A stretch of DNA of 64,000 nucleotides from Burkholderia pyrrocinia (GTDB taxonomy: Bacteria > Pseudomonadota > Gammaproteobacteria > Burkholderiales > Burkholderiaceae). Made by a program: the position numbers and the translations under genes. Location: the NCBI RefSeq assembly GCF_001028665.1, contig NZ_CP011504.1, forward strand, positions 1,240,001-1,304,000. The letters are read 5' to 3'. Below are positions 18,550 to 38,980 of this stretch, one piece after another (position 1 is the first letter of the stretch; each line of letters starts with the position of its first letter). The notes under the pieces were generated by a model, which was not told the origin of the DNA, searched no databases, and saw only the letters and a program-made list of their open reading frames with translations.

Positions 18550-18564
18550 TGAAGGATTTCTCAA
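18550..18564 (-). promoter_or_regulatory. Shared regulon site A (cytochrome b561 gene)
   Basis: In the sense of the downstream gene the site reads TTGAGAAATCCTTCA, two TTSA-type half-sites 11 bp apart. It is 93 bp upstream of the start at 18457 and differs at one position from site B. Confidence 0.75.
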
Positions 18565-18619
18565 CGCGCGCGGCGCCTTCCCGTCACAGCCGCGCGGGCC
18601 GCGTTCGGCCGCGAACGGC

Positions 18620-19303
18620 TCAGGTCCGCTCGAGCCGGTACCCGTAGTTGTAGATCGTCGTGATGACGAGCCCGTTCTTCGGCCGCAGCCCGAGACTCCT
18701 GCGCAGCTTGCTCACGTAGGTTGCCAGAGTCGCGTCGTATTTCCGGTCGACGACGCCCCATACGTGCTTGATCATCATGTCCTTCGACACGATCCGGCCG
18801 ACACTCTCGAACAGCATCAGCGCGAGATCGAATTCGCGCCGGGCCAGTTCGACGGGCGCGCCGTCCACGGTGGCGACGTGCGTACCGGTGTCGAGCGCGA
18901 ATTTCCCGACCTCGACGATCTTCGCCCGCTGCGTTTCCGGATAGTACTTCCGCGCCTGGGCGCTCACGCGCGCGATCAGTTCGCGTTCGCGCAGCGGCTT
19001 GACGAGATAATCGTCGGCGCCATTGTTGAGGCCGAACACGATGTCGTCCTCGCCGTCGTGCTGCGTCATCATGATGATCGGCAGCGCGTCGGCGAACGAA
19101 TCGCGCGCCCAGCGCATCACGTCGATGCCCGACATGCCGGGTACGTCCCAGTCGAGCAGCAGCACGTCGACGCGCGTCGAGCGTACCAGTTCGACGAAGC
19201 TCTCGCCGTCGTGACGGACCTCGGTTTCGTAGCCGGCCTTCTCCAGCCAGCGGGCTACGACACCCGCCTGCGTCACGATGTCTTCCAGGATTGCAACGAT
19301 CAT
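18620..19303 (-). CDS. OmpR-family response regulator
   Basis: 227 residues from the ATG at 19303. The receiver domain has the acidic pair at residues 7-8 (LEDIV), phospho-acceptor Asp51 (LLLDWDVPGMSG), Thr80 and Lys102 (YLVKPLRERE). Residues 130-225 are an OmpR-type winged helix (ELARREFDLALMLFESVGRIVSKDMMIKHVWG ... SKLRRSLGLRPKNGLVITTIYNYGYRLE). It is the last gene of the secretion operon, 13 bp after the third minor pseudopilin, and has no kinase beside it. OmpR-type proteins bind 11-bp-spaced direct repeats, which is the geometry of the five shared sites. The likely partner is the CHASE2 kinase at 34129-36441. Confidence 0.92.
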   Translation of the reverse strand: MIVAILEDIVTQAGVVARWLEKAGYETEVRHDGESFVELVRSTRVDVLLLDWDVPGMSGIDVMRWARDSFADALPIIMMTQHDGEDDIVFGLNNGADDYLVKPLRERELIARVSAQARKYYPETQRAKIVEVGKFALDTGTHVATVDGAPVELARREFDLALMLFESVGRIVSKDMMIKHVWGVVDRKYDATLATYVSKLRRSLGLRPKNGLVITTIYNYGYRLERT

Positions 19304-19316
19304 GTTGTTTCCGCTT

Positions 19317-19850
19317 TCAGTGTGCGGCTCCGGTTGCCGACGTGCCGGCCGCGTTTGCAGCACCGTCGCCGGGCGCCGGCGGCAGGTAAACGAAAATCCA
19401 TTCGCCATATGTGTCGCGGTCGCCGAACGACTCGTATCGGACCGGGAACCCCTGGCGTTTCAGCGGCCGGCCGGCCGCTTCGCTGAACACGCCCATGATG
19501 CCGCCGTCCGGCGCCTTCACGAGCCCCCATTGGGTCGACCCGGTCAGCGGGTCGGCATACAGGCGTCGCAAATGGCGCTGGGTCGGCAAGGTCCGGCGAT
19601 CCTCCAGCAACGCGTCGAGCGACTCGGGATAGCGGTTTTGCCCCGCTGCGCCGTAGTAGCGTTCGATCGCCGCGCGATACTGGTCGCCGACGAACAGCAG
19701 CTCGGCTTCGCGGTCGCGTTGCTGAACGGTGCTCCAGATGCGCGTCGCCTCGGTCATCCCGAGACCGAGCGCCGCGACGAGCATCAGCACGCCGAGATAC
19801 GCGATGCCGCGTTGGGTGCGCGGGCGTTGCCGCAGGTTACCACGTCTCAT
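19317..19850 (-). CDS. Type II secretion-like minor pseudopilin (third)
   Basis: 177 residues. The N terminus has a prepilin-like cleavage site, RTQRG|IAYLGVLMLVAALGLGMTEATRIW: glycine before the cut, then a long hydrophobic helix. It lacks Glu at mature position 5 (Gly instead), the mark of a tip-type pseudopilin such as GspK. The globular part has ADPLTGSTQWGLVKAPDGGIMGVFSEA and YGEWIFVYLPPAP, typical of pseudopilins in related betaproteobacterial clusters. It overlaps the previous gene by 14 bp. It probably caps or initiates the pseudopilus. Confidence 0.82.
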   Translation of the reverse strand: MRRGNLRQRPRTQRGIAYLGVLMLVAALGLGMTEATRIWSTVQQRDREAELLFVGDQYRAAIERYYGAAGQNRYPESLDALLEDRRTLPTQRHLRRLYADPLTGSTQWGLVKAPDGGIMGVFSEAAGRPLKRQGFPVRYESFGDRDTYGEWIFVYLPPAPGDGAANAAGTSATGAAH

Positions 19851-20232
19851 AGCTGCTTCCGTCGAGCGCGTTTCCCTTTGCGCCGCTCTTGATGTCGGCC
19901 ACGCCGCCGCTGTCGCCGGCCAGAGCGCGCCACGAATTGCGCTTGCCCGTCACCGGGTCGAGCGGCACTTCACGCAGGTAGCGATTTTCGACGAGCGCCT
20001 CGAGCGAGGCCGGGTCGCGGCCGTGGTCGGCGCGATAATCGTCGATCGACTGGCGCAGCGTATTCAGGTTGTGGCGCAGCACGGTTTCCTTCGCGCGGTC
20101 GCCCTGCTTCAGATAGCCGGGCGCGACGAACGCGGTCAGCGCCGCGATGATCGCCATGACGACGAGCAGTTCGACGAGCGTGAAGCCGGCGGTGCGACGC
20201 GCACGTCTACCATTGGTTGTACGGGACGCCAT
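19837..20232 (-). CDS. GspG-like pseudopilin (second minor)
   Basis: 131 residues from the ATG at 20232, overlapping the previous gene by 26 bp. The prepilin site is canonical: RRTAG|FTLVELLVVMAIIAALTAFVAPGY with Glu5. The C-terminal half has the GspG-like RYLREVPLDPVTGKRNSWRAL calcium-loop-like segment. It should be processed and N-methylated by a prepilin peptidase, which is not encoded in this window. Confidence 0.88.
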   Translation of the reverse strand: MASRTTNGRRARRTAGFTLVELLVVMAIIAALTAFVAPGYLKQGDRAKETVLRHNLNTLRQSIDDYRADHGRDPASLEALVENRYLREVPLDPVTGKRNSWRALAGDSGGVADIKSGAKGNALDGSSYETW

Positions 20233-20695
20233 TGATGCCCTCCTTGCGGTTGGTGGAACGGATGTCGAACACGTCCTCGCCCGACGAAAAGGATGCCGGA
20301 TCGCTCGCGTAACTGCGCGTTTCCCACATTTCGTCGGGCGCCTTGCCGTCGCAATCGCACATCGGATCGGCGGGAATCTTGCGCAGGAAATACAGCCGCG
20401 CGCCGTTCGGGGACGTCTTGTCCTCGACGCCCTCGACCAGCGTGCGCAGATCCGGCGGATAGCCGCTCGCGTCGGCGCTGTGCTCGATCCGTCCTTCGCC
20501 GGCCGCCGCCTTGTAGGCATCGAGCGCCGACCGGATGACGACCAGCGCGCGGCGCAGCTCGGTTTCGTCGGCGCGGCGCCTGGCGAGATCGGTCAGCGGC
20601 AAGGCGACGGTGGCGAGCAGCGCAAGCAGCGTCAGCGCGACCATCATCTCGATCAGCGTGAAGCCGCGCGCGCGGCGGCGCCGTGCGGCGCTCAT
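20207..20695 (-). CDS. GspG/PulG-like pseudopilin (first minor)
   Basis: 162 residues starting in an ATGA overlap with the secretin stop. The canonical prepilin site is ARG|FTLIEMMVALTLLALLATVALP with Glu5. The globular domain is longer than in GspG and has a DPMCDCDGKAPDEMWETRSYASDP insert with two cysteines, probably a metal or disulfide site. It ends GVPYNQW. It is one of three consecutive minor pseudopilin genes, taking the place of gspHIJK in a canonical cluster. Confidence 0.88.
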   Translation of the reverse strand: MSAARRRRARGFTLIEMMVALTLLALLATVALPLTDLARRRADETELRRALVVIRSALDAYKAAAGEGRIEHSADASGYPPDLRTLVEGVEDKTSPNGARLYFLRKIPADPMCDCDGKAPDEMWETRSYASDPASFSSGEDVFDIRSTNRKEGINGVPYNQW

Positions 20696-22980
20696 GCGAC
20701 GCTCCAGGGGCTGGGCAGCCGTCCGGGCGCATCGGCGTGCAGGGTCGATCCGGGCACGGCGCCGCCGTTGATGGACGCCACGAACGACACCAGCGAGCCG
20801 ATCAGCGAGCGCACCATGGCCAGCAGCCCGCGCTTTTCGGTCGCGGACGCCGCCACGTCGGCCGGCAGGTCCGCCGCCGCGACGACGGCGGCCTCGGCCT
20901 TCGGCGGCGGCACGGCGCGCGTGGCCGAGGCGGGCTCGATCGCATGCGCGCGAGGCAGCGGCAAGGCGGCCGCTTCTGCACGCACACGCATCATGCTGCC
21001 GCCTTTCATCGTGGGCCTGCCCGATACGGCCCCGGCGTCGCCCGATTCTTCAGCCGGGGAGGCTTCAGCGCCCGGCGCGGTATCGACGGCCTCGTCCGGG
21101 CCCGGTTGCGCGGCAGGCGCGGCGTTCGTGACGGGTGCAGCCGGTTCGATCGGCGCATCGAGATCCGGGGCGTTCGACGAAGCCGACGAAGCCGACGAAG
21201 CCGTCGGGGCCGGTGCGGCCGATGCGGATTCGAGCGTCAGCGCCTCGGTCGTCACGCGCGTCTCGGTCCCCGACAGGAACGTGGTGACGGCCGACGTCGG
21301 CAGGTCGAGGTTGCGCTCGATGTGCGGAGTAATCAGCAGCACGATTTCCGAGCGCTCGTTGCTGCGGCCGTTCGAGCCGAACAGGCGGCCGACGACGGGC
21401 AGGCCCGACATGCCGGGCAGACCCGAGACGTTCTCGATCTCGTTGCGCTTGACGAGGCCGGCGAGGATCTGCGTTTCGCCGTTTCGCGCGGTCATCAGGG
21501 TTTCCGCATTGCGCGTCCCGAGCGAATAGGCGACGAGGCCGGTCTTGGTCGTTTCCTTCGACAGGATGCTGCTGACTTCCATGTTGACCTTCACGCTGAC
21601 CTCGTCGTCGAGGCTGATGCGCGGCTCCACCTTCAGCATCAGGCCGACGTCCTGGTAGCTGACGGATTCCGTGACGACGCCGTTGGCGTTCGTGGTCGTG
21701 ACGATCGGCACGCGTTCGCCGATCTTGATGTTGGCCTTCTCCATGTTGCGTACGCGGATCTTCGGATTCGCGAGCGTCTTGGTCTTGCCCTGCTTCTGCA
21801 GCATGTCGATCGCGAGCGACAGCGCGCCGGATTCGCTGGATACGCCGATCCGGTCGCGGTTCAGGCGCAGCAGGTCGCCGAGCGTCAGCGCCGCGCCCTC
21901 CGCGCCGCCGAGCGCGCCGAACTGGACGCGGCCCGGGTACTGGACGCCGAGATCGAGGCTGTCGTTCATGTTGACCTCCAGCACCTGCACGTCGAGCGTG
22001 ACTTCGGACTGGGGGATGTCCAGCCCCATCACGACGCGCTCGGCCACCTGGATCGTTTCGGGTGTGTCGCGCAGGACGACCGCGTTGACACGCTCGTCCA
22101 CGTAGATGTCCTTCGGCTTGATCATCTGGCGCAGTGCCGCCATCACCGATTTCGCGTCCGCGTGCGACAGGAAGAAGGTGCGCAGCGCGAACTCGGTGTA
22201 GGTGCGGCTTTTCTCCGGCTGCGACGGGTAGACGAGCAGCGTGTGCTTGTCGAGCACCTTCTTCTCGAGCTGGTTCGTGCGCAGCAGCAGGTTGATCGCA
22301 TCCTCGGCGGTGGTGCGCTCGGCGAACAGTGTGGCGGGCTGGTTGGTATCGACGTCGCGGTCGAACACGAAGTTCACGCCGGACACGCGCGAGATCACGT
22401 CGAAGATGTTCGACATCGGTTGCTGCTTGAAATTGAGCGAAACCGGCTTGCGCAGCGCGTCGGACAGTTGCGGGCGCACGGGACGGCTCGCCTGCGACGC
22501 GCGCAGCAGCGCATCGCGCAGCCGCTTGGCTTCCGCGTGGTTCGGCTGTTCGGCAAGGATGCGCCGCGCGATCTCGAGGGCTTCCTGCGGTTGCTCGCCG
22601 CGGATGCGCTGTGCGCGCGACAGCTCGACCGCCATTTGCTGGCGGCGCTTGACCTGCTCGAGTTCCTGACGGGCGCGCAGATTGCCGGCGTCCTCGGCCA
22701 AGACGTTGTTCAGGTGATCGATCGCCGCGCTGTGGTTGCCCTGTGCGTTTTGCCGGTCGGCGGCCTTCAGCTCGGCGCGCACGTATTCCTGCCGCGTGAG
22801 TTCGAGGGACGTGGCGATCCGGATGTCTTCCGGTGCGGCTTCCTTCTGCTGCTGGAGCGTGCCGAGGCGTTCGGCGGATGTTCCGGCGGTGGCGGGCGGG
22901 CTGCCGGCCGGGAGGCTCGAGCATCCCGCCAGCGCCAGCGCCGAGGTCAGGAGCAATAGACTGATGGTTCGTTTCATCAT
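20692..22980 (-). CDS. Outer-membrane secretin, lipoprotein (GspD/PilQ/MshL type)
   Basis: 762 residues. It begins with a lipoprotein signal (MMKRTISLLLLTSALALAGC). Residues 40-170 are TPR-like helices (AAIDHLNNVLAEDAGNLRARQELEQ, ALEIARRILAEQPNHAEAKRLRDALL). A short N-domain follows (KPVSLNFKQQPMSNIFDVISRVSGVNFVFD), then one N1-type domain and the secretin core with VPIVTTT, NGETQILAGLVKRNEIENVSGLPGMSGLPVVGRLFGS and EIVLLITPHI. It thus resembles MshL/PilQ-like lipoprotein secretins more than canonical GspD with its N0-N3 stack. Beyond the core is a 205-residue Ala/Pro/Ser-rich tail ending in an amphipathic helix (GLLAMVRSLIGSLVSFVASI), which is unusual. Confidence 0.9.
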   Translation of the reverse strand: MMKRTISLLLLTSALALAGCSSLPAGSPPATAGTSAERLGTLQQQKEAAPEDIRIATSLELTRQEYVRAELKAADRQNAQGNHSAAIDHLNNVLAEDAGNLRARQELEQVKRRQQMAVELSRAQRIRGEQPQEALEIARRILAEQPNHAEAKRLRDALLRASQASRPVRPQLSDALRKPVSLNFKQQPMSNIFDVISRVSGVNFVFDRDVDTNQPATLFAERTTAEDAINLLLRTNQLEKKVLDKHTLLVYPSQPEKSRTYTEFALRTFFLSHADAKSVMAALRQMIKPKDIYVDERVNAVVLRDTPETIQVAERVVMGLDIPQSEVTLDVQVLEVNMNDSLDLGVQYPGRVQFGALGGAEGAALTLGDLLRLNRDRIGVSSESGALSLAIDMLQKQGKTKTLANPKIRVRNMEKANIKIGERVPIVTTTNANGVVTESVSYQDVGLMLKVEPRISLDDEVSVKVNMEVSSILSKETTKTGLVAYSLGTRNAETLMTARNGETQILAGLVKRNEIENVSGLPGMSGLPVVGRLFGSNGRSNERSEIVLLITPHIERNLDLPTSAVTTFLSGTETRVTTEALTLESASAAPAPTASSASSASSNAPDLDAPIEPAAPVTNAAPAAQPGPDEAVDTAPGAEASPAEESGDAGAVSGRPTMKGGSMMRVRAEAAALPLPRAHAIEPASATRAVPPPKAEAAVVAAADLPADVAASATEKRGLLAMVRSLIGSLVSFVASINGGAVPGSTLHADAPGRLPSPWSVA

Positions 22981-23008: not shown

Positions 23009-23479
23009 TCAATGGGTCGGCGACGGCGGCGACAGCTCGATGTCCGAGCCGTTTCGGGTCATGACGACCGGACCTGTTTCGCCCAGCGTTTTCAGCCGGT
23101 AGCCGTCGGCGATCTCGCCGCCCGGCAATACGGCATCGCGGACACCGCAGCGGCGTCCGCACAGCAGGAATGTCTTGCCGTCGCCTTCCAGCACGACGAT
23201 GCGCTGTCCTTGCGTGCGCCATTCGCCGGCAATCTCGAACGGCATCGGCGGCGCGGCGGCGGCGTCGATCGGATCGCTCAGCGCTGGCGGCTCCGCCGCG
23301 GGCGGTTCGACAGGGTCGGGCGTGGCGGGGGGCGCGTCTTCCGCGCCGAGCGACACCCAGTTTTGGGCCGGGAACACGTCGACGATGCGCGGCTGGTCGA
23401 CGGACTCGTGCGCGAGGCTGCCGCCGGCGGCGGCAACGGCCAGCGCCGCCGCGACGCGTATGAAGATGCGGCGCATCAT
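23009..23479 (-). CDS. PilP/GspC-like periplasmic connector
   Basis: 156 residues. An N-terminal hydrophobic segment (RIFIRVAAALAVAAAGGSLA) is followed by a proline-rich linker (APPATPDPVEPPAAEPPALSDP) and a small beta domain: PFEIAGEWRTQGQRIVVLEGDGKTFLLC ... GYRLKTLGETGPVVMTRNGSDIEL. That is the layout of GspC homology-region and PilP domains, which link the inner platform to the secretin N-domains. It contains a CGRRC pair not typical of GspC. From memory, some databases give such genes the odd name 'secretion system X translation initiation factor', which the sequence does not support. Confidence 0.75.
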   Translation of the reverse strand: MMRRIFIRVAAALAVAAAGGSLAHESVDQPRIVDVFPAQNWVSLGAEDAPPATPDPVEPPAAEPPALSDPIDAAAAPPMPFEIAGEWRTQGQRIVVLEGDGKTFLLCGRRCGVRDAVLPGGEIADGYRLKTLGETGPVVMTRNGSDIELSPPSPTH

Positions 23480-24030
23480 GCGTCGGGCCCCAGCAGGCTG
23501 ACCCGCAGATCGACGTTGACGACGGGGCTGTCGATCTTTTCGCGCTCGATCGTGACGCTCTCGATACGCACCATCGGCTGGTCGGCGATTTTCCGCATCG
23601 CTTCGCGCAATCCGGCGTAGCTGCCGCTCAGCGCGATGCTGATCGTGAGCCGTCGCAGCTTGCCCTTCACCTCGGCCTCGCGCCGGTAGGTCGCGTGCTT
23701 CCGTTCCAGGCCGTTCTGCGACAGGATCTCGAACAGCGAATACGCCTGCTCGCGGCTGCGCAGCTGCTGGACGTCCTGCAGCGTCATGCCGCTGTCGCCG
23801 GCCTTCGGGCCGGGCTTGGGCAACGCGGCCAGATCCTTGGCGAGCGCGCCGCGCGTCGCGTCGAGTCGCGTGCCGCCCGGTTGGATATAAAGCGCGTGCA
23901 GGCCGAGCAGGCCGACGACCGCGCCGGCCGCCAGCAGCCCGGGCACGCCGAGCTTGCGGGTCGCGACATAGCGCCCCCAGCGCAACCGCGCAGCAAGCGC
24001 CGTTTTGTCGAGTGCATTCAGGTGGGTCAT
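23476..24030 (-). CDS. PilO/GspM-like inner-membrane platform protein
   Basis: 184 residues: a short cytoplasmic N terminus, one transmembrane helix (GVPGLLAAGAVVGLLGLHALYI), a linker and a ferredoxin-like periplasmic domain (KGKLRRLTISIALSGSYAGLREAMRKIADQPMVRIESVTIEREK). This is the PilO/GspM layout. It overlaps both neighbours by 4 bp, so all platform genes are translationally coupled. Confidence 0.78.
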   Translation of the reverse strand: MTHLNALDKTALAARLRWGRYVATRKLGVPGLLAAGAVVGLLGLHALYIQPGGTRLDATRGALAKDLAALPKPGPKAGDSGMTLQDVQQLRSREQAYSLFEILSQNGLERKHATYRREAEVKGKLRRLTISIALSGSYAGLREAMRKIADQPMVRIESVTIEREKIDSPVVNVDLRVSLLGPDA

Positions 24031-24557
24031 GGATGTTCGATGCTCAGGCTGAAGTGAAAAATGGCCTTGCCGTCCTCGGTCTTCATCCGATGCTGGAGCA
24101 GGCCGATCATGCGGTCCGGATGGCGGTCGTGCAGGCGGTCGACGAACAGGTAGATGTGCGACAGCTCCGCGGCACCGCCTTCGATGCGCGCCTCGCGGCC
24201 CGCCTTGTCCACCGTCAGCGACTTCAGCGCGATCTGTGGGGTCCAGGCGTGCTCGATCCAGTCGATCACCGACAGGCCGGATCCCTTGTCGGTCATCGTC
24301 TGTTCGGCCAGCACGCGCTCGATGCGCCGCTGCTCGGGCGTCTTGGCCTTCTCCCGCCGCTGTTCGCGCTCGATGACGCGCTGACGCTGCTCGATGCGCT
24401 TCTCGACCTGCTCGACATCGTCACGCAGTGCTTCGACGCGGTTCCATTCGCTGCCGGCGAAGAGCCCGGTAGCCAGCGCGCAGCACAGCGCGATGCCGGC
24501 CCACGGCGTCAGGCGCGTGCGCGACGCGACGAAGTTCAGTTCCGACAGGCGCTTCAT
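24027..24557 (-). CDS. PilN-like inner-membrane platform protein
   Basis: 176 residues from the ATG at 24557. It has one transmembrane helix (AGIALCCALATGLFAGSEW), then a long charged helix (LRDDVEQVEKRIEQRQRVIEREQRREKAKTPEQRRIERVLAEQ) and a compact C-terminal alpha/beta domain (IALKSLTVDKAGREARIEGGAAELSHIYLFVDRLHD). In type IV pilus systems PilN joins cytoplasmic PilM to PilO. Gene order M-N-O-P is conserved here. Confidence 0.75.
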   Translation of the reverse strand: MKRLSELNFVASRTRLTPWAGIALCCALATGLFAGSEWNRVEALRDDVEQVEKRIEQRQRVIEREQRREKAKTPEQRRIERVLAEQTMTDKGSGLSVIDWIEHAWTPQIALKSLTVDKAGREARIEGGAAELSHIYLFVDRLHDRHPDRMIGLLQHRMKTEDGKAIFHFSLSIEHP

Positions 24558-25304
24558 GCCGGATCCTCCGCCGCGACATCCATCGGTTCGGCCGTGCGGC
24601 CATCCGTCGGCGCGCACGCCGCGTCGCCATCGGCGAACATCGAACCGTCGAACCGGCATGCATGCGCGTCGCCGCCGGCCGGCTGCCCGGCGATCAGCGC
24701 CGCCGCGGCGAACCAGTCGTCGGGGCGGTCGCCGGCGCGCGGCAACGTGACGATGTCGGCCCATTCGCCCGAACGCCGGAAAATGCACGTCACGACGTGC
24801 GGCTGGCGAAGCGCGAAGCGGAAATCGTCGCCGACCAGCCGGGCGGCGTGCGAGGCGAGCGACGCCGACAGCGCGTCGCGGAAGCTGGCGAGCCGCCAGC
24901 CGGCCGCGCGGCTCGCGTCGACGAGCGCCGCGAGGAGTTCGTCGCAGGCCGCGACCGCGAGGCGCGCGCGGCCGCGCCGTTCGTCCTCGATGAGGATGCG
25001 CAACGCGCCGCGCTGCGCGCGCGCGGCGAACAGCATGCGGGCGTACGCATCCCACGCGGCGTCCGACACCAGGCCTTCCTGCCAGGGCAGTACCACACCG
25101 TGCGACCACGGATGCCCGACGACGACGTGGAGGCGGTTGCGCATCGGCAGGCGCGCTTTCGGCAGGCCGGCGAGCACCTGCGCGAGCGCGTCGGCCGGCC
25201 GGCCCTCGTGGGCGACGACGGCGAGCGGTGCACCGGTGCGCCGTGCGCGCCGGCTTTCATGCGCCCGGACGTGCAGCGTATCGGCGTCGATCAGCACGGT
25301 GACG

Positions 25305-25324
<20 letters not shown>
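24554..25324 (-). CDS. PilM/GspL-like cytoplasmic platform protein
   Basis: 256 residues. GTG start at 25324 with AGGAGGT six bases before it; it overlaps the GspE stop by 20 bp. The chain has no membrane helix and a divergent actin-like arrangement (VTVLIDADTLHVRAHESRR, RLHVVVGHPWSHGVVLPW, RLAVAACDELLAALVDASRAAGWRLASFRDALSASLA, HVVTCIFRRSGEWADIVTLPR). The assignment rests mainly on position, size and the following PilN-like gene, since sequence likeness to PilM is weak. It should couple the ATPase to the PilN/PilO platform. Confidence 0.65.
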
Positions 25325-26939
<1,615 letters not shown>

Positions 26940-28177: not shown

Positions 28178-28687
28178 CTACCTCCGCCATTCGTCGAGCA
28201 ACGCCGAGCTGGCGACGCGATTGCTGGTCAGCGTCTGGTACTCGCGCCAGACCTTGGTCGCATACGATTTGCGCACCGGTTCGCGCTTCGCCGACGATCC
28301 GGCGTTGTAGGCGCCGACGGCATTCCATGTGTAGCCGTGCCGTTCGATGAAGCCGGCGAGAATCGACGCGCCGGTGTCGATCGACGTACAGGGCTCGTTG
28401 ATCAGGCGCCCGTGCGTGACGCCTGTCTTGATCAATCGCGGCAGGTGTGAGCTGTTGATCTGCATCAGCCCGATGTCGTAGGTGCCGTTGCGGTTGTAAT
28501 TGATCGCGCGAGGATTCAGCGACGATTCCACTTTCGCGATCGCGACGAGCAGGAGCGGATCGATACCGTGCCGCTCGCCTGCCTGGGTAAAGCAATCCTT
28601 GGCTGCGGCGCCGGACGCGCAGACGGCGATCGCCGCCGCGACGGTCCAGCGACGCAGGCCCTTACATGCCGTAGACGAGGTCCGCAT
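28178..28687 (-). CDS. Periplasmic lytic transglycosylase of the secretion cluster
   Basis: 169 residues with a signal peptide (RRWTVAAAIAVCASGAAA). The SLT-type family 1 motifs are present: AIAKVESSLNPRAINYNRNGTYDIGLMQINSSHL with the catalytic Glu in KVESS, then AGFIERHGYTWNAVGAYNAG. It cleaves peptidoglycan glycan strands, presumably to open a gap for the secretin and pseudopilus. Similar enzymes accompany type III, IV and pilus clusters but are unusual inside canonical type II clusters. It overlaps the gspG end by 26 bp. Confidence 0.9.
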   Translation of the reverse strand: MRTSSTACKGLRRWTVAAAIAVCASGAAAKDCFTQAGERHGIDPLLLVAIAKVESSLNPRAINYNRNGTYDIGLMQINSSHLPRLIKTGVTHGRLINEPCTSIDTGASILAGFIERHGYTWNAVGAYNAGSSAKREPVRKSYATKVWREYQTLTSNRVASSALLDEWRR

Positions 28688-30832: not shown

Positions 30833-30985
30833 GGTGTATAGGAGATGGATCGTATCTGTCGGTACTGCTTTCGAAAGAGCGGTTGATCGAAGCCGGCACG
30901 GTGCCCGGCGTTTGCGCGTCGTGCATCGAGTGGGATGCGACACGGGTTGCAGTTTCCGCGAGCGCGGCGGGGGCGAGAATCTTCC

Positions 30986-31000
30986 TGAACGATTCATCAA
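30986..31000 (-). promoter_or_regulatory. Shared regulon site E (LPMO)
   Basis: In the LPMO sense the site reads TTGATGAATCGTTCA, 154 bp upstream of the LPMO start. It is the second most divergent copy but keeps both half-sites and the central ATC. Confidence 0.6.
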
Positions 31001-31037: not shown

Positions 31038-31053
31038 TTGAGACATCCTTGAG
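31038..31053 (+). promoter_or_regulatory. Shared regulon site C (chitinase)
   Basis: TTGAGACATCCTTGAG, a perfect TTGAG direct repeat with an 11-bp period, 86 bp upstream of the chitinase start. It matches site B at 14 of 15 positions. Confidence 0.78.
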
Positions 31054-31137: not shown

Positions 31138-33990
31138 TTGCGCCTGAATAAACTCAACCTCAATCCGTCGCGTATCGGCGTTGCGTCCGGCCGCACCCAG
31201 ACGCTTGCATTCGCGACGATCGCCACGGCCAGCGCGCTGTGTTTCGCGAACGCCGCGTTCGCCGCCCCCGGCAAGCCCAGTCTCAAGCAATACGAAATCA
31301 CGTCGAAGCCGCACGGTTTCGTCGAGATCGATCTGCAGAGAGCGGGAAGCGCGCCCTACAAGGACCTCGTCAAGCTCAACAAGAAGGTCGACGTGCCGCT
31401 GCCGTTCGACATCTGGAGCAACGGAACGGCCGTGAAGGCGGTCGCGGTGGTCGACGGCGCGGTCGATGCCGCGTCGGAACTCAAGCTGACGCCTGGCGGC
31501 ACCCAGAGCGGCACCGTCATCGCCAACGTCAAGACGCCGGGCGTGAAGAAGATGCAGGTCCGGGTGATCGACGCGAACGGCGCGTCGACGGACAGCGCGC
31601 CGATCGACGTGGTCGTGTTCGACACGATTCCGGAACTGGCCGATACGCTGCCCGACAACGCGAGCAAGGCGCACAAGCGTTTCAAGAACACGTCCGGCTC
31701 GGTGGTCGGCACCTACTTCGCGACGTGGTCGGTCTACGACCGCAAGTTCAACGTCGACAACGTGCCGGTCGAGAACCTCACGCACATGCTGTATGGCTTC
31801 GTGCCGATCTGCGGCGGAGCGAACATCAACGCGTCGCTCGCGCGCGACGTGCCGAATTCGTTCCGCGCACTGCAGCAGACGTGCGCGGGGCTGCCCGACT
31901 TCAGCGTGGCGATCCACGATACGTGGGGCGAGATGGGCATGACGCTGCCCGGCCAGACCGCGAACTCGAAGCTCAAGGGCGTGCTTGGCCAGATGATGGC
32001 CGCGAAGAAACGCAATCCGGACCTCAAGATCCTGCCGTCGATCGGCGGCTGGACGCTGTCCGATCCGTTCTTCCAGCTGCACGACCCGGCCAAGCGCAAG
32101 GTGTTCGTCGATTCGACCGAGCAGTTGCTGCGCACCTGGAAGTTCTTCGACGGCGTCGACATCGACTGGGAATTCCCGGGCGGCAAGGGCGCGAACGGCG
32201 CGATCGGCAATCCGCAGACGGACGGCGCGCTGTATGTGACGCTGATGAAGGAACTGCGGCAGATGCTCGACCGCGTGTCGGCGGACACCGGCAAGACCTA
32301 CGAGCTGACGTCGGCGATCGGCGCGGGCAAGGACAAGATCGACGTGGTGAACTACAAGGAAGCCACGAAGTACATGGACTACATCTTCGACATGACGTAC
32401 GACTACTACGGTGCGTTCAGCCTGACGGAGCTGGGTCACCAGACGGCACTGCACGCGCCCGCGTGGCGACCGGACACCAAGTACACGACCGACAACTCGA
32501 TCAAGGCGCTGCTTGCGCAGGGCGTCGATCCGAAGAAGCTCGTCGTCGGCGCGGCGGCATACGCCCGCGGCTGGACCGGCGTTTCGGGCTACACCGACGG
32601 CAATCCGTTCACCGGCACCGCGAAGGGGCCGCACAAGGGGCAGTGGGAAGCCGGCATTCTCGACTACAAGAAGCTCAAGGCGGAGATGATCGGCCCGAAC
32701 AACGCGGGCATCAACGGCTACGAGTACCACTACGACCAGACGGCCGAGGCGCCGTACGTGTTCAACAAGAGCACCGGCGAACTCCTCACGTTCGACGATC
32801 CGCGCTCGGTGAACGCCAAGGGCGACTACGTGCGCAAGCAGCAGCTCGGCGGCATGTTCTCGTGGGAAATCGACGCGGACAACGGCGACATCCTGAACGC
32901 GATGCACGAAGGTCTCGGCCACGGCGACGGCGGAAGCGGCGCGGAGAATCGTCCGCCGATCGCGAACGCGGGAACGGCCATGACGGTCACCGGGCCGCAG
33001 ACGGTGACGCTCGACGCGTCGAAGTCGCGCGATCCCGACGGCGACAAGCTGACCTTCAAGTGGGAACAGATCGGCGGCGATCCACTGAAGATCGGCAGTC
33101 CGGACAGTGCGAAGGCGACGGTCGACGTGCCGGCGGTCAAGCAGGACACCCGCTACACGTTCCGCGTGACGGTGACCGACCCGGCCGGGCTGAAGGGTGC
33201 CGCGCAGGTCGTCGTGACCGCGCAGGCCGAAGCGTCGGTCGAGCCGCCGCCGGCCGAAAACCGTCCGCCGGTCGCGCGACTCAGCGGTCCGGCGCAGGCG
33301 GAAGGCGGTCAGGCCGTGGTCCTGTCGGCCGAGAAATCGACCGATCCTGACGGCGACAAACTGACGTTCCAGTGGACGGCTCCGTCCGGCATCGACGTGC
33401 AGCCTTCCGGCGCGACGCTGCGCTTCACCGCGCCGAAGCTTGCGAAGGACCAGTCGTTCACGTTCTCGGTCAAGGTCGGCGACGGCAAGCTGTCGTCCAC
33501 CGCTCAGCACACGGTGCTCGTGAAGGCGACGGAGACGGGCGGCGGCAATGGTGGTGGCGGCAACGGCGGCGGTGGCGAAGGCGGCCAGTACCCGGCCTAC
33601 AAGGCCGGGACGCAGTACAAGGCCGGCGACGTCGTGTCGAACCTGGGCAAGCTGTACCAGTGCAAGCCGTTCCCGTACAGCGGCTGGTGCTCGGGTGCGC
33701 CGGCGGCCTACGAACCGGGCAAGGGCTCCGCGTGGAGCGATGCGTGGACGATCTTCGGCAACGATGAAGGCGGCGGCAACGGCGGCAACGGCGGCGGCGA
33801 AAGCGGCGGCAACCATCCGCAGTACAAGGAAGGCACCAAGTACGGCGCCGGCGACATCGTGTCGAACAACGGCAAGCTGTACCGTTGCAAGCCGTTCCCG
33901 TACACCAACTGGTGCTCGATGGCTGCCTGGGCCTACGAGCCCGGCAAGGGCACCGCGTGGGATCAGGCCTGGGAGGAACACAAGGACTGA
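31138..33990 (+). CDS. Modular secreted chitinase (GH18 + two PKD + two CBM5/12)
   Basis: 950 residues. The start is probably TTG at 31138 with AAGGA about 11 bases upstream; no in-frame ATG precedes the signal peptide (AFATIATASALCFANAAFA). Residues 45-185 form an N-terminal beta domain. Residues 190-600 are the GH18 barrel: KILPSIGGWTLSDPF and FFDGVDIDWEFPGG, with acid Glu345 in the DxxDxDxE motif. Then come two PKD domains (about 605-695, 705-795) and two CBM5/12 modules, each YKAGTQYKAGD...GKLYQCKPFP...W, separated by Gly/Asn linkers. It hydrolyses chitin outside the cell. Site C lies just upstream and a strong terminator follows. Confidence 0.95.
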   Translation: MRLNKLNLNPSRIGVASGRTQTLAFATIATASALCFANAAFAAPGKPSLKQYEITSKPHGFVEIDLQRAGSAPYKDLVKLNKKVDVPLPFDIWSNGTAVKAVAVVDGAVDAASELKLTPGGTQSGTVIANVKTPGVKKMQVRVIDANGASTDSAPIDVVVFDTIPELADTLPDNASKAHKRFKNTSGSVVGTYFATWSVYDRKFNVDNVPVENLTHMLYGFVPICGGANINASLARDVPNSFRALQQTCAGLPDFSVAIHDTWGEMGMTLPGQTANSKLKGVLGQMMAAKKRNPDLKILPSIGGWTLSDPFFQLHDPAKRKVFVDSTEQLLRTWKFFDGVDIDWEFPGGKGANGAIGNPQTDGALYVTLMKELRQMLDRVSADTGKTYELTSAIGAGKDKIDVVNYKEATKYMDYIFDMTYDYYGAFSLTELGHQTALHAPAWRPDTKYTTDNSIKALLAQGVDPKKLVVGAAAYARGWTGVSGYTDGNPFTGTAKGPHKGQWEAGILDYKKLKAEMIGPNNAGINGYEYHYDQTAEAPYVFNKSTGELLTFDDPRSVNAKGDYVRKQQLGGMFSWEIDADNGDILNAMHEGLGHGDGGSGAENRPPIANAGTAMTVTGPQTVTLDASKSRDPDGDKLTFKWEQIGGDPLKIGSPDSAKATVDVPAVKQDTRYTFRVTVTDPAGLKGAAQVVVTAQAEASVEPPPAENRPPVARLSGPAQAEGGQAVVLSAEKSTDPDGDKLTFQWTAPSGIDVQPSGATLRFTAPKLAKDQSFTFSVKVGDGKLSSTAQHTVLVKATETGGGNGGGGNGGGGEGGQYPAYKAGTQYKAGDVVSNLGKLYQCKPFPYSGWCSGAPAAYEPGKGSAWSDAWTIFGNDEGGGNGGNGGGESGGNHPQYKEGTKYGAGDIVSNNGKLYRCKPFPYTNWCSMAAWAYEPGKGTAWDQAWEEHKD

Positions 33991-34128: not shown

Positions 34129-36441
34129 CTATGCGGCGTCGTCCGTGCCCGCGCGGGTCATCGGCAAGTGCACGGTGAAGCGGCTGCCTTGCCGTGGCGC
34201 GGACGTCACGTCGATCGATCCGCCGTGGCGCTCGATGACCGTCTTGACGAACGGCAGCCCGAGCCCGACGCCGCCGCTTGCATCGCGATACGTGCCATCC
34301 ACCTGGAAGAACGGCTCGAACAGCCGGGGCATCGCCTCGGCCGGGATGCCGATGCCGTTGTCCGCCACGGCGATGGAGACGTGGCGCTCGTCGGAGGTGA
34401 TCCGTACGTCGACGACCGTGCCTTCGTCCGAATACTTGATGGCGTTGTCGAGCAGGTTGGTCAGCGCGCGGAGCAGCATGTCGCGATTGCCGAGCACGAA
34501 CGCTTCGTCGCCGTCTTCATGCGGACCGTCGACGCGAATCCGCTTCGCGCCCGCACTGTGCCAGACCTGATCGACCGCTTCCATCGCCAGGTCGCTCGCG
34601 GACACCGGTATGTAGGCACCCTGGTCGAGATGCTCCGCGCGCGAGAGCTGGGTGAAATCCTGCGCGACGCGCAAGCTGTAGTCGACGAGCTTGTGCAGGT
34701 CCGCGAGGAAATCCGGATCGGTCGAACCGTCGGTGACGCTGTGCTGCTCGAGCAGCGACAGCACGGTCGAGAGCGGATTGCGAAGATCGTGCGCCATGTG
34801 GCGCAGTGTCATGCGGTCGCTTTCGACCGCCGCCGTGATGTTGTGGATGTCGACGAGGCAGATCATGCTGGCCGTGGAGCGATGACGATCGCCGTCGCCG
34901 AACGGCGTCACCATCATCATGTGCGTGCGCGCGTTCAGCGTGAGTTCGGTCGAGTGGATCCGCCCGGTTTTCTTCGCGGCGAGGATTTTGTCGTAGGCGA
35001 TGCCGATCACCTGCCGGGCGGCCGCATCGCTGTCGACGTCGATCGATTTCAGCATCGCGTTGCCGCGTTCGTTGCACATCAGCAGGCTGCCGTCCTGTTC
35101 GACGAAGATGGGATAAGGCAGCGTATGGATCACGTCGACGTAGGTCGACTGCCATTCGCGGATGCGCGACATCGCCTGCGCGACGTCGTCGTCCGTCGGC
35201 GCCGCATCGTCGGCGTCGCCCGTTTGCGCAAGGCCCGCGAACGCGTGCCGGCCGGCCAGCCCGCGCAACCCGCGGTATTCCTTCATCAGTGCGGCGCGCA
35301 GGCTGCCTGCGCGCCGCCAGCCGCAGACGGCGAAGATCGTCACGCACACGGCAAGCGACGGCCCGACCGGTGTCCAGTATGCGCCGTACACGAGCAGCGC
35401 CGTTTCGCCGGCGACGTAGGCAGCCAGCCACGCCAGCGCGAATCCGTACATGCGTCGGCCCGGCACGAGCAAGCAGATCAGCAGCATGCCGATCGTGACC
35501 GCCATGCTGACGACCAGTTGGATCCCGGCCGGCACGCGCCGCATCAGGTGTCCGTCGAGCAACGCTTCGGTGGCGAGCGCATCGACCTCGACACGCTTCA
35601 CCCTTCCGCCGCTTCTCGTCGACAGATAGAACACGCCCGTCATCTCGGACATCCCGTCGCCGATGAACACGATGCGGTCGCGCCATGCCGACGCGGGCAC
35701 GCGGCCCTTCAGCACGTCGACGAACGAGTAGCTCGCGAGGTCGAAGCGCAACGGAAGGCCCAGCAGGATCGTGCCGTCTTCGACTCTTCCCATCCTGGTG
35801 ACATGCGGCTGCACGTGGCGACGCACGTCGCTGTCCGGCTGCGGCACGTTGGCGACGCGGATCGCCTGCAGGCCGACATGAGGAATTTCGTCGCCGCTGC
35901 TGCTCTTGACATAGGGCACGATGCCCTGCACCAGATGGTCGCTGCCCAGCACGATGCTGCGCTGGCCGATCGCCGCGGCCGCTTCCCGCAGCGACCGCGC
36001 CGGCAGGATCACGGTATCGGCCCTGTCGTGAACCGGCGACATCTGGGCGGGCAAGACCACGCGGCCGTGCCTCGCGATCGCGGCCGCCAGCACCCCGTCG
36101 TCCTGCGCCGGCGAGATCATCGTCATGTCGAGGACGACGCTTGACGCGCCGGCGACGCGATCCAGCACCCCCGCATAGGCCGTGCGCGTGTAGCTCCCGC
36201 TGCCGCCCAGTTCGGCGAGCGTCTTCTTGTCGACCATGATCACCGCGACCTTGTCGCGCGGCCCGCGATCGATGCCGGATGAAACGACGTGCCAGTAGAG
36301 TCGATCCACGGGCGAGAGCAGCGTCTCGACGGCGGCGGTGCAGCTCAGTGCCGCAAGCGCGGCGACGCCGGTCAGCAGCAGCCATGTGGACGGGCGTGCC
36401 GACGCTGCGATTCCCGGAACCTGGCGGAGCCTGTCGAGCAT
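34129..36441 (-). CDS. CHASE2-domain sensor histidine kinase
   Basis: 770 residues. The first transmembrane helix is at about 19-37, then an extracytoplasmic CHASE2 domain (about 45-300; VIMVDKKTLAELGGSGSYTRTAYAGVLDRVAGASSVVLDM ... IVFIGDGMSEMTG), three C-terminal helices (304-326, 331-352, 360-375), a PAS-like domain (440-535), and the kinase core. The H-box is MAHDLRNPLS with phospho-acceptor His551; N-box NLLDNAIKYSD, G1 DNGIGIP, G2 GGVGLGLPF. There is no adjacent response regulator. Its place between chitinase and metalloprotease, and the orphan OmpR-type regulator in the secretion operon, point to a split two-component system. Confidence 0.93.
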   Translation of the reverse strand: MLDRLRQVPGIAASARPSTWLLLTGVAALAALSCTAAVETLLSPVDRLYWHVVSSGIDRGPRDKVAVIMVDKKTLAELGGSGSYTRTAYAGVLDRVAGASSVVLDMTMISPAQDDGVLAAAIARHGRVVLPAQMSPVHDRADTVILPARSLREAAAAIGQRSIVLGSDHLVQGIVPYVKSSSGDEIPHVGLQAIRVANVPQPDSDVRRHVQPHVTRMGRVEDGTILLGLPLRFDLASYSFVDVLKGRVPASAWRDRIVFIGDGMSEMTGVFYLSTRSGGRVKRVEVDALATEALLDGHLMRRVPAGIQLVVSMAVTIGMLLICLLVPGRRMYGFALAWLAAYVAGETALLVYGAYWTPVGPSLAVCVTIFAVCGWRRAGSLRAALMKEYRGLRGLAGRHAFAGLAQTGDADDAAPTDDDVAQAMSRIREWQSTYVDVIHTLPYPIFVEQDGSLLMCNERGNAMLKSIDVDSDAAARQVIGIAYDKILAAKKTGRIHSTELTLNARTHMMMVTPFGDGDRHRSTASMICLVDIHNITAAVESDRMTLRHMAHDLRNPLSTVLSLLEQHSVTDGSTDPDFLADLHKLVDYSLRVAQDFTQLSRAEHLDQGAYIPVSASDLAMEAVDQVWHSAGAKRIRVDGPHEDGDEAFVLGNRDMLLRALTNLLDNAIKYSDEGTVVDVRITSDERHVSIAVADNGIGIPAEAMPRLFEPFFQVDGTYRDASGGVGLGLPFVKTVIERHGGSIDVTSAPRQGSRFTVHLPMTRAGTDDAA

Positions 36442-36641
36442 AGGGCGGCGTTTCCTCGAACAAGATGTTGTTGGATGTCGACCGGGATGCTGCAGCGCCG
36501 GGCGCCCCGGGCAAACGATGCTTGCCGGTTCGCGCCATGCGGGTTTTCCCGTCGGGAGAGTCTAGCGTTGTTTGCGCCGTTCGGGAGCAGGCGGCGGGGC
36601 GAAATCGCTCCGGAACGAAACCGGCGGTGCCGGTCGGCGCG

Positions 36642-36667
36642 TTGAGAATGGGTTGAGGATGTTTGAG
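36642..36667 (+). promoter_or_regulatory. Shared regulon site D (metalloprotease)
   Basis: The first 15 bases read TTGAGAATGGGTTGA. TTGAG occurs at 36642, 36653 and 36663, so two or three half-sites with 11- and 10-bp spacing. The 15-mer ends 78 bp upstream of the metalloprotease start. It also lies about 200 bp upstream of the divergent kinase, in the opposite orientation. Confidence 0.65.
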
Positions 36668-36733
36668 CGGGGAGCGGGGCGTCGCAACAATGCGGATTCC
36701 TTTCCATTCGCGCCGTTTGCGCCTTGCCATTCC

Positions 36734-38980
36734 ATGATCGTGAAGAACCTTAGCTATGCCTTCGCACTGACCGCGCTGTCCGCGGCCGTCGCGGCCATCC
36801 TGGTACCGTCCGGCGCATCCGCCACTCCCGCGTACGCGCCGATCAAGCACTACCAGGACGGTGTCGAGCAATGCCTCGCGTGGCAGCCGGGCAACGCCGA
36901 TCCCGTCGTCGCGACCTGCGACGGCGCCGCCGCGCAGGACTGGGCGTTTGTGCCGGGCGCGGGGTATTACCAGATCCGCAATGCCGGGGCCACGCAGGCA
37001 CGCGGCCAGGACATGTGCCTGCGCACCCGGGCCGGCAATACCGGCATGGGCGGCGTGTCGATCGACGCGTGCGCCAGCGGCGACGCGAAGATGTCCCAGT
37101 GGCGCTTCGAGACGGGGCCGGCCGGCCGTCTTGGCATGCTGAACGCGTACCGGATCTCGACGGGGCGAGACGAAGTGCTCGCGATCCGGGCCGGGAGCCA
37201 GGGCGTCGCGATGCAGTTCGCCCGCGGCGAGGCATCGGCGGCGTGGGTGTCGGCGACGACGTTTGCGCCGCCGCAGCGCCCGCTGATGGGCAACAGGACG
37301 GCGCTGGCATTGACCGCGCACTTCAGCAACGCCGCGGCGAACGATCCCGAGATCGTCCGCAAGGCCGTGTTCGGCGATGGCGACGACTATTCGTCGCTGC
37401 GCCGCTATATCGAAGTGGCGTCCCACGGCAAGGCCACGCTGGGCGGGACCGTGCTCGGCGACGTCGACCTGGGCGCCCGCCCGGCGACCTGCAGCTCGGG
37501 TGCGTTGCTCGACTCGGCCCGCAAGGCCGCGCTGGCGCAGGGCACCGATCCGGCGCGATTCGACTACCTGCTCGTCGATTTCTCGAAGCTCGGCAGTTGC
37601 GGCTGGGCGGGGCTGGCGGCGCAGCCGGGCAACTGGATCCTGTCGAACGGCAATGGCCGCGGATACTGGATGTGGACACACGAATTCGGTCATTCGCTCG
37701 GCGCGTCCCACCCCGATTCGCTGATCGACTGCCCGACCGTCGGCGGCACGGTGCAGGTGGGTGCCGCGTGCCGCACGGGCAAGGTCGACGATCCGTCCGA
37801 CACCGTCGGCGGCGGCGGCCGTCGCCTTTATCCCGGCAGCTACCAGCTGTTCTCCGGCTGGCTCGATCAAGCCCAGGTGCCGGAAATTCGCGAGTCCGGC
37901 ACCTACAGGCTGATGCCGCTGTTCGGCGACCAGGCGGGTGCGAAAGGCTATCGCATCGCGCGAAGCGACGGCACGCAGCTGTGGCTCGAATTCCGGCAGC
38001 CGCTGCGCGGTTTCGACGACTGGAAGGCGGACGATCCGTTCGTCAACGGCGTGATCGTGAGGACTGTCCGGTATCAGGGCAGTTCGCTGAAGAATACGCT
38101 GGTGGATACGACGCCCGGCAGCGCCGGCGGCATGAAGGATGCCCCGCTGATGCCGGGTCACGCGCTGCACGACACGCTGTCCGGCAAGATCGTCACGGTG
38201 AACTCGGTCGGGCCGGACGGCGCCGTGGTCACCGTGAAGAACGACGGCGTGCTGCTGCCGGAGGCCGCCATCACGGGGCCCGCGCAAGCCGATGCGAACA
38301 CAACGGTCACGTTGTCCGGCGACGCATCGGTCGGCGATCGCCTGCGATACCGATGGAGCGCGCCGGCCGGCGTCGCGCTGGAGCAGAACGGCAGCCGTGC
38401 GAACGTGGTCGTCCCGCCGGCCGACCGGGATCGCGAGTACGCGTTCGGGCTGACCGTGATCAACGGCAACGGGTATGCGGCCAGCACGACGCACGTGCTC
38501 AAGGTGAAGGCGCAAGGGACGATCGCGCCGCCGGGCGCGTCGATCGCCGGCCCGACACGGGCCGTGGGCGGCGAACGCGTCACGTTGTCGGGCGCGCAAT
38601 CGACCGGGAAGGGCCTGTCGTACGCGTGGACGAGCCCGCCCGGCGTGCAGCTCAGCCAGCAGGGAGCGACGGCGAGCTTCGTCGCGCCGAAGGCCGGGAG
38701 CGAGCGCGGATATGACTTCCGCGTGACGGTGACCGATGTGCTGAACCGCCAGTCCGTGGCCACGCACCGTGTGACGGTCCAGGCCGATGCCGGCGAGGCA
38801 GTCGAGTCATGGGATCCGAAGCGGACCTACGCCGCCCCTTGCCAGAAGGTCGCTTACGCGGGCAAGCGCTGGATGAACGGCTGGTGGGTGCTGGGCGACG
38901 TGCCCGGCCAGGGCGGCGAATGGGGTCCGTGGCGCGAAACCGGGGCGGCCAACATGCATGCGCAGTGCAAGGTCAAATGA
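36734..38980 (+). CDS. Secreted modular metalloprotease with lectin, PKD and chitin-binding-like domains
   Basis: 748 residues. A signal peptide (about 1-30) is followed by a ricin-B-like lectin fold (35-165; CLAWQPGNADPVVATCDGAAAQDWAF), a metzincin catalytic domain with the full zinc motif HEFGHSLGASH (His316, His320, His326; gametolysin/M11-like), a beta region (440-500), two PKD-like domains (about 515-600 and 605-695), and a C-terminal tryptophan-rich module (WDPKRTYAAPCQKVAYAGKRWMNGWWVLGDVPG) like CBM5/12. It should degrade protein in a glycan-rich target such as cuticle or insect/fungal wall. It shares site D and a C-terminal module type with the LPMO, so I infer it is cargo of the same secretion system. 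Confidence 0.88.
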   Translation: MIVKNLSYAFALTALSAAVAAILVPSGASATPAYAPIKHYQDGVEQCLAWQPGNADPVVATCDGAAAQDWAFVPGAGYYQIRNAGATQARGQDMCLRTRAGNTGMGGVSIDACASGDAKMSQWRFETGPAGRLGMLNAYRISTGRDEVLAIRAGSQGVAMQFARGEASAAWVSATTFAPPQRPLMGNRTALALTAHFSNAAANDPEIVRKAVFGDGDDYSSLRRYIEVASHGKATLGGTVLGDVDLGARPATCSSGALLDSARKAALAQGTDPARFDYLLVDFSKLGSCGWAGLAAQPGNWILSNGNGRGYWMWTHEFGHSLGASHPDSLIDCPTVGGTVQVGAACRTGKVDDPSDTVGGGGRRLYPGSYQLFSGWLDQAQVPEIRESGTYRLMPLFGDQAGAKGYRIARSDGTQLWLEFRQPLRGFDDWKADDPFVNGVIVRTVRYQGSSLKNTLVDTTPGSAGGMKDAPLMPGHALHDTLSGKIVTVNSVGPDGAVVTVKNDGVLLPEAAITGPAQADANTTVTLSGDASVGDRLRYRWSAPAGVALEQNGSRANVVVPPADRDREYAFGLTVINGNGYAASTTHVLKVKAQGTIAPPGASIAGPTRAVGGERVTLSGAQSTGKGLSYAWTSPPGVQLSQQGATASFVAPKAGSERGYDFRVTVTDVLNRQSVATHRVTVQADAGEAVESWDPKRTYAAPCQKVAYAGKRWMNGWWVLGDVPGQGGEWGPWRETGAANMHAQCKVK

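Follow-up and report, generated by a model that had tools for sequence, protein, structure and literature searches.

The 64,000-nucleotide stretch of Burkholderia pyrrocinia DNA analysed here (assembly GCF_001028665.1, contig NZ_CP011504.1, positions 1,240,001 to 1,304,000; hereafter the window, whose positions are used throughout) carries a 13-gene operon related to type II secretion systems (T2SS) and type IV pili. The operon probably represents a distinct type II-like machine lineage specialised on chitin-active exoenzymes, which would leave the cell through its secretin under the control of a kinase and a regulator acting at shared DNA repeats. A first-pass annotation had named the operon, a lytic polysaccharide monooxygenase (LPMO), a GH18 chitinase, a lectin-metalloprotease, a CHASE2 kinase and an OmpR-type regulator, and all were found in their places (Table 1). 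As judged from comparative sequence data, the chitin interpretation appears to hold for one lineage and not for the whole machine family. An orphan type II-like family would gain a testable function in one well-defined lineage, and the limit of extending the assignment becomes visible. Members of the lineage come from Burkholderia, Pandoraea, Caballeronia, Cupriavidus, Chromobacterium, Chitinibacter and its kin, Pseudomonas, and some Enterobacterales and Xanthomonadales.

Loci of the wider family were collected with an alignment of the operon's pseudopilin-like protein that lacks Glu5, a marker carried by 148 of 399 genomes across the order. One hundred loci were taken among the order matches listed. 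The window and 27 other family loci were added, 5 of the 33 family matches being omitted. Of the 100 order loci, 15 lacked a GspE scoring 400 bits or more and were left out of the tree. Open reading frames were called in the neighbourhoods and searched with GH18, AA10 and CBM5/12 profiles seeded from the window. A further profile (psp) drifted to all pseudopilins and was unused for counts. The GspE tree held 116 rows, 2 of them outgroup ATPases and the other 114 loci of the wider family. One 40-locus clade (support of 99 in the Shimodaira–Hasegawa-like approximate likelihood ratio test, SH-aLRT), in which the window GspE was also placed, took in every one of the 33 loci that had a chitin-active neighbour by these profiles; none of the 74 loci outside it had one. 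Part of the clade had been gathered by similarity to the window ATPase and the order-wide sample by the independent marker; in the latter alone, 8 of 85 loci were positive, corresponding to 8 of 14 clade members and none of 71 others. Because the loci are related, p-values derived in this way come out too small.

The 80 best GspF relatives in the GTDB collection (L185-L264) overlap the 114-locus set, so the two counts were not summed. In a second tree, 79 of these relatives were on the clade's side, separated with a branch support of 100 from 9 wider-family outgroup members (L197 was skipped). Within 10 kb, a GH18, GH19, AA10 or CBM5 gene was found at 59 of the 80 with our own profiles and, with L258 and L261 added by Pfam, at 61. 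Pfam searches with one protein from each of the 59 loci detected CBM5/12 in 45, GH18 in 33 and AA10 in 26. The remaining 19 neighbour-negative genomes and that of L261 were searched as a whole, and CBM5/12 was present somewhere in 20 of 20, with 5 to 97 matches each. The genome-wide search of control genomes covered CBM5/12, which was found in one of 40 genomes with non-clade members (G373, 14 matches). In the tree, the operon of G373 (L140) falls on a branch separate from that clade. Genera among the relatives include Burkholderia, Paraburkholderia, Pandoraea, Caballeronia, Cupriavidus, Chromobacterium, Chitinibacter, Chitinilyticum, Chitiniphilus, Andreprevotia, Iodobacter, Jeongeupia, Pseudomonas, Glaciimonas, Dyella, Lysobacter, Rouxiella, Serratia and Enterobacter. 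The co-occurrence of operon and chitin-active genes anticipated by the first-pass annotation was thus borne out in one clade and its relatives, and failed outside it (by our own profiles). Its broader suggestion, that the locus shows what the so-called secretion system X secretes in general, does not survive the counts outside the clade and in the order-wide sample, nor the PhoX gene beside a second operon of this genome (see below).

Within the clade, the arrangement of genes differed between sub-lineages. In the 114-locus set a transglycosylase gene adjoined a pseudopilin gene in 14 of 14 AA10-bearing loci, in none of the 19 loci with GH18 only and in 1 of 7 neighbour-less clade loci. This arrangement is a marker of the AA10 sub-lineage; the transglycosylase gene of the window lies between gspG and gspF. 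The operon of L064 was flanked by GH18+CBM5 on one side and GH19+CBM5 on the other (Pfam). At Caballeronia-type loci (L064 2325-4262, L068, L069, L071 and others) a CBM5/12 protein was seen just downstream and a GH18 protein just upstream of the operon, and putative cargo therefore flanks the machine on both sides.

Within the genus, 65 genomes were searched and a GspE of the window type was found in 16. Orthologues of the chitinase, ChiA (at least 68% identical), were present in 15 genomes, all among these 16 and none among the 49 without the machine, and orthologues of the LPMO, GbpA (at least 76% identical), in 14, again all among the 16. Both lay on the contig of GspE, within about 9 kb. 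The association of ChiA with the machine has a p of about 8e-14 if genomes are taken as independent, which they are not. In G234, the sixteenth machine genome, the operon adjoins a different AA10. Further AA10 matches (37-46% identical) occurred elsewhere in 10 of the 16 machine genomes and in 11 of the 49 others; AA10 as such is therefore independent of the machine.

Machine and candidate cargo also share a direct repeat with the consensus TTGAG-N6-TTSAK and an 11-bp period (Table 1). An 11-bp spacing is typical of OmpR/PhoB-type regulators. The repeat was scored as present at 9 or 10 of 10 positions, and the stretch between the LPMO and GH18 genes held two divergent copies in 9 of 9 near loci. 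For comparison, one or more such matches lay somewhere in 26% of 336-bp pieces from the same loci (GC content of at most 0.60), and letter shuffles held a match in 34 of 540 cases for the region upstream of gspG and in 48 of 540 for that upstream of the LPMO gene; it is therefore position and register that carry weight. With at most one mismatch, TTGAKNNATCSTTSAK had 10 matches genome-wide (1 for the reversed control), of which 5 were exact, 4 of these in the locus. A 15-base motif common to three locus sites had, with at most one mismatch, 3 matches in the genome (7.96 Mb, 4 contigs), all at the locus. The shared operator-like sites reported by the first-pass annotation are thus real and conserved in place, and its view of the locus as more than a chance neighbourhood was strengthened by the 15-base motif and by the locus LPMO, the only AA10 in the genome by Pfam.

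Regulator and kinase were found together in 10 of the 40 clade loci, the regulator alone in 2 and neither in 28; a similar regulator without the kinase was present at 3 of the 74 non-clade loci. In Chromobacterium both were found at 2 of 3 loci, and the third was cut short. The control circuit is therefore specific to the window's branch and not to the whole clade.

In the mechanism proposed, the LPMO and the chitinase would be exported with Sec-type signal peptides and fold in the periplasm. The GspE/GspF/PilM-N-O module would assemble GspG-type subunits into a short pseudopilus, which would then push both enzymes through the secretin. The CHASE2 kinase, encoded about 15 kb away from its presumed partner, would phosphorylate the OmpR/PhoB-type regulator, possibly in response to chitin products, and the regulator would bind the 11-bp repeats upstream of gspG and of the LPMO and GH18 genes, presumably as an activator, so that machine and cargo would be made together. 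A positive feedback loop would follow, because the regulator is encoded by the last gene of the operon. If this is true, the clade of the motor could be used to predict chitin degraders, and the genome would offer a natural comparison for type II cargo choice, with related machines of one cell standing beside chitin enzymes, beside PhoX and as the canonical system.

Several points weigh against a dedicated chitin secretion machine. To our knowledge, T2SS cargo signals cannot be read from sequence, and the cargo could therefore use the canonical Gsp system. The window-seeded profiles favour near relatives, and the in-house profiles missed the GH18+CBM5 chitinases of the Enterobacterales loci L258 and L261, which were found by Pfam; profile-based neighbour counts are therefore lower bounds. 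The controls covered 40 of the 68 non-clade genomes. Among the other 28 are 7 from family f22, in which clade members also occur, and three (the window's own, G365 and G395) that carry a clade member as well. The repeat pattern was derived from the very sites it describes, and the nine loci are closely related. The regulator pair is missing from 28 of the 40 clade loci, and block inheritance could account for the linkage seen in the genus.

The operon could instead encode a chitin-regulated surface pilus, or a filament displaying an adhesin, for attachment to chitin, with the co-expressed enzymes leaving through the canonical Gsp system. The split PilM/PilN/PilO-like genes do resemble those of type IV pili, V. 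cholerae has a chitin-regulated pilus, and a canonical GspE is encoded in the same genome. We nevertheless consider a pilus unlikely: the first pseudopilin meets the GspG equivalog, no retraction ATPase is found among the 13 genes, the PilB and PilQ cut-offs are missed, and orthologous ChiA and GbpA were not found without the operon in the 65 genomes. An improbable alternative is a general second type II-like system with many cargo proteins, of which the chitin genes are merely the most visible in chitin degraders. Consistent with it, six f5 loci that were read have the operon without a chitin-active neighbour (five with similar surroundings by eye), and Chitiniphilus and Andreprevotia genomes without an adjoining chitin gene hold tens of CBM5/12 matches; it accounts poorly for a chitin linkage that recurs in many genera and is absent, by our own profiles, from the 74 sister loci. 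That the neighbourhood arose by chance or as a selfish island, with no functional link, seems very improbable. The locus does belong to the accessory genome, being present in 16 of the 65 genomes of the genus, but the clade-wide pattern, the genome counts of CBM5/12, the conserved repeats and the fact that the chitin-active neighbours come from different families (in Caballeronia GH18 and GH19, in Pseudomonas AA10) all disfavour chance.

The window machine shares with the canonical Gsp/Xcp T2SS the kinds of putative cargo, Sec-type signal peptides, a GspG pseudopilin, a secretin, an ATPase and a platform protein, and export of GbpA, LPMOs and chitinases by T2SS is classical. It differs in that its GspE, GspF and GspD miss the equivalog cut-offs and its ATPase forms a clade of its own, in that a 256-residue actin-fold protein and a separate PilN-like gene stand in place of a GspL fusion, and in that no GspH, GspI, GspJ or GspK is found here by curated models. 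The canonical GspE of the genome, on contig C1, scored 759.6 against a cut-off of 630.25. The separate PilM/PilN/PilO/PilP-like set recalls type IVa pili, but the 13 genes include no PilT, the ATPase reached 441.1 against 675.65 for the PilB equivalog and the secretin 154.2 against 284.35 for PilQ.

The SEED/RAST label 'predicted secretion system X' presumably denotes the same wider family, with GspG/F/E, a secretin and further GspG-like genes. No paper using this phrase was found in the literature searched. None of the matches listed linked the machine family to chitin in its title or opening abstract, most subscription papers lying outside the search. An operon of Paraburkholderia nodosa is referred to as 'secretion system X' in the part of PMC5095457 consulted. 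The B. pseudomallei cluster BPSS1593-1600 was considered as the same cluster and rejected, the search listing pointing to an R64-type pilus.

In the portions seen of PMC8623646 and PMC12369383, the Txc system of P. aeruginosa PA7 (P. paraeruginosa) is a dedicated extra T2SS on an accessory island, adjoining the two-component system TtsSR, which switches on Txc and its chitin-binding cargo CbpE together; Txc is termed there a 'third Xcp homolog' (PSPA7_1407-1417), and its genes include one for GspL. As far as the text of PMC6668835 was available, Txc is named in its reference list alone. Compared by description, Txc appears to be the nearest functional parallel, set apart on the same footing by the split PilM/PilN-like genes and GspG-like minor pseudopilins of the window machine and by its scores below the GspE, GspF and GspD equivalog cut-offs. 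A Jeongeupia transcriptome was tried and rejected as expression support: in the part of PMC10455584 consulted, the top chitin-induced pilin genes are of the Flp type IVb and not of the operon.

Table 1. Features of the machine locus, in window coordinates (scores in bits, with the cut-off where one applies)
Feature	Position	Strand	Evidence and remarks
Operator-like repeat, about 180 bp upstream of gspG	29265..29280	-	In place in 9/9 near loci
Operator-like repeat facing the LPMO gene	30985..31000	-	9/9 near loci; exact match genome-wide
Operator-like repeat facing the GH18 gene	31038..31053	+	9/9 near loci
Operator-like repeat upstream of the b561 gene	18549..18564	-	This orientation at b561 in 2/7 loci only
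Looser repeat (TTGAG-N6-TTGAG) upstream of the metalloprotease gene	36643..36658	+	Full match, of 7 loci, only in the window and its nearest relative
GspG major pseudopilin, operon gene 1	28662..29102	-	TIGR01710 151.4, above cut-off 88.85
SLT lytic transglycosylase	28178..28684	-	PF01464 91.4
GspF-like inner-membrane platform protein	26994..28175	-	PF00482; GspF equivalog 233.1, below cut-off 424
GspE-like assembly ATPase	25305..26939	-	PF00437 403; GspE equivalog 473.9, below 630.25
PilM-like/cytoplasmic-GspL-like actin-fold protein	24554..25324	-	AlphaFold2 model (pLDDT 85.9); Foldseek
PilN-like protein	24027..24575	-	Position between PilM-like and PilO-like genes; weak GspM (XpsM-type) match
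PilO/GspM-like protein	23476..24030	-	Profile match to PilO 3jc8, E 7e-7
GspC/PilP-like HR-domain protein	23009..23479	-	AlphaFold2 model (pLDDT 83.6); Foldseek
Secretin	20692..22980	-	PF00263 130.5
GspG-like pseudopilin 2	20207..20695	-	PF07963 over cut-off
GspG-like pseudopilin 3	19837..20232	-	PF07963 over cut-off; start with ribosome-binding site at 20232
Glu5-less pseudopilin-like protein	19317..19850	-	No Pfam/NCBIfam match; conserved in 23 aligned sequences
OmpR/PhoB-family response regulator, last operon gene	18620..19303	-	PF00072 (receiver) and PF00486 (winged-helix Trans_reg_C)
GbpA-type AA10 LPMO with CBM5/12	29372..30832	-	GbpA equivalog NF009690 534.3, cut-off 481
ChiA-type GH18 chitinase	31138..33990	+	GH18 267.3; ChitinaseA_N, PKD, CBM5/12; motif DGVDIDWE (DxxDxDxE)
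CHASE2 sensor histidine kinase	34129..36441	-	PF05226 and PF02518 over cut-off; HisKA PF00512 24.8, just under
Predicted secreted ricin-B-like/metzincin/PKD protein with CBM5/12-like end	36734..38980	+	Motif HEFGHSLGASH; weak ricin-B below Pfam cut-off; PKD-type repeats
Cytochrome b561 family gene; candidate regulon member and candidate redox partner	17906..18457	-	PF01292 90.6

The 13 minus-strand genes run from 29102 down to 18620 as a single operon, their junctions ranging between short overlaps and a gap of 54 bp, in the order GspG, lytic transglycosylase, GspF, GspE, PilM-like, PilN-like, PilO-like, GspC/PilP-like, secretin, two GspG-like pseudopilins, Glu5-less pseudopilin-like protein and OmpR-type regulator. 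Their predicted product is a divergent type II/type IV-pilus-like machine together with its OmpR/PhoB-type regulator. The LPMO gene had been placed after the operon; in transcription order it lies upstream, and the GH18 and metalloprotease genes are on the plus strand.

None of five small operon proteins had an above-cut-off match to curated Pfam or NCBIfam models. In Foldseek searches with the model of the PilM-like protein (the predicted local distance difference test, pLDDT, is given in Table 1), FtsA came first by E value, the cytoplasmic EpsL structure 1yf5 had a TMq of 0.50 and PilM a TMq of 0.32-0.45. The top match of the GspC/PilP-like protein was the GspC HR domain 3oss_C (probability 0.99, with a weak E of 0.12), followed by PilP. 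Profile searches of the PDB with the alignments of these two proteins gave no match, and the Pfam PilO model stayed below its cut-off on the PilO-like protein. The secretin scored 159.2 against the GspD equivalog cut-off of 351.35, so that both the GspD and PilQ cut-offs were missed; its lipoprotein-type signal was judged by eye, the Pfam lipobox model giving 14.2 bits, below cut-off. With the curated models, both GspG-like minor pseudopilins missed the GspH, GspI and GspJ cut-offs and no GspK match was obtained. Glutamate at position 5 is absent from the pseudopilin-like protein in the homologues read, and canonical GspK likewise lacks it. The best NCBIfam model of the regulator was PhoB, below cut-off. 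The window operon has no prepilin peptidase gene and presumably borrows one; prepilin-peptidase-like genes were seen by eye directly upstream of gspG, on the opposite strand, at the Enterobacterales loci L238 (8051-8788) and L263 (8063-8797).

The Sec-type signal peptides of the cargo candidates were judged by eye. His31 of the LPMO aligns to residue 1 of mature CBP21 and, with cleavage at this point, would be the mature N-terminus. The best PDB matches of the GH18 protein were chains named Chitinase A. A counterpart of the kinase, 67-99% identical, was found in six of seven other near genus loci, the seventh (G288) stopping at a contig edge; the kinase of G285 is 50% identical to that of the window. 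The C-terminus of the metalloprotease matches chitinase and CBM chains of solved structures (E about 0.0002-0.006). The protein was found at 1 of 7 other near loci reaching that far (full-length only in L041), an eighth, G288, stopping at the contig edge, and it is therefore at most strain-level extra cargo. A secretory lipase gene (PF03583, with a signal-like N-terminus by eye) lies at window positions 12769-14085, a few kb beyond the operon, and the narrow motif is unmatched nearby.

Outside the chitin clade, a second operon of the same architecture is present in the window genome (L079, G000:C1:2530001-2550000). It stands beside genes for a PhoX-family protein (17672-19714, minus strand), whose signal looks Tat-like by eye, for an SCO1-like protein and for LuxR-type regulators, and PhoX may be the cargo of this machine. 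As a general neighbour of the non-chitin family PhoX was rejected, being found only beside this operon. By eye, no common neighbour was recognised among 147 neighbour proteins of the non-chitin family. Nine of the 147 were scanned with Pfam: none was chitin-active, five had no match, and the other four were a GH5/CBM4_9 protein, an M60 metalloprotease and two RHS and SpvB/TcdB-middle repeat proteins. The downstream neighbours at the non-clade loci L138 (706-2853, minus strand) and L169 (17242-19998, plus strand) are a GH5 protein of the cellulase type, carrying CBM4_9, and an M60 metalloprotease. Other branches of the machine may have other secreted cargo.

The first-pass annotation had omitted the cytochrome b561 gene downstream of the repeat at 18549. 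In the 114-locus set, b561 genes were found at 12 of 14 AA10-bearing loci and at none of the 26 remaining clade loci or the 74 loci outside the clade; one exception, L054, ends near a contig edge, and the b561 gene of G288 was found on an extra 20-kb stretch. The b561 proteins belong to at least two subfamilies (23-29% against 34-99% identity to that of the window) and their genes are placed at different positions, which argues for repeated linkage. The genome holds 8 b561 genes, and the chance of one in a 36-kb stretch is about 4%. The window's branch might be a redox-linked chitin-attack module in which machine, LPMO and the inner-membrane b561 are co-inherited, b561 feeding electrons to the LPMO for its activation or consuming its superoxide or peroxide, so that the respiratory quinone pool would be coupled to both secretion and oxidative chitin cleavage; more generally, motor phylogeny would predict the polysaccharide attacked by the cargo. 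We regard this idea as speculative and rather doubtful. In the 10-kb flanks of the GTDB relatives, b561 occurred at 5 of 36 AA10-bearing loci and at 5 of 44 without AA10 by our own profiles (three Chromobacterium, two Rouxiella), and at none of 22 AA10-bearing Pseudomonas loci; these counts speak against a redox role, as does the rarity of the operator at b561 (Table 1). The b561 link would nevertheless point to a possible electron source for bacterial LPMOs. Besides the window, the clade loci with a b561 gene, most of them AA10-bearing, are L042, L045, L047, L049, L051, L052, L056, L058, L060, L065 and L083, and L187, L190, L194, L195, L197, L198, L204, L238, L243 and L257.

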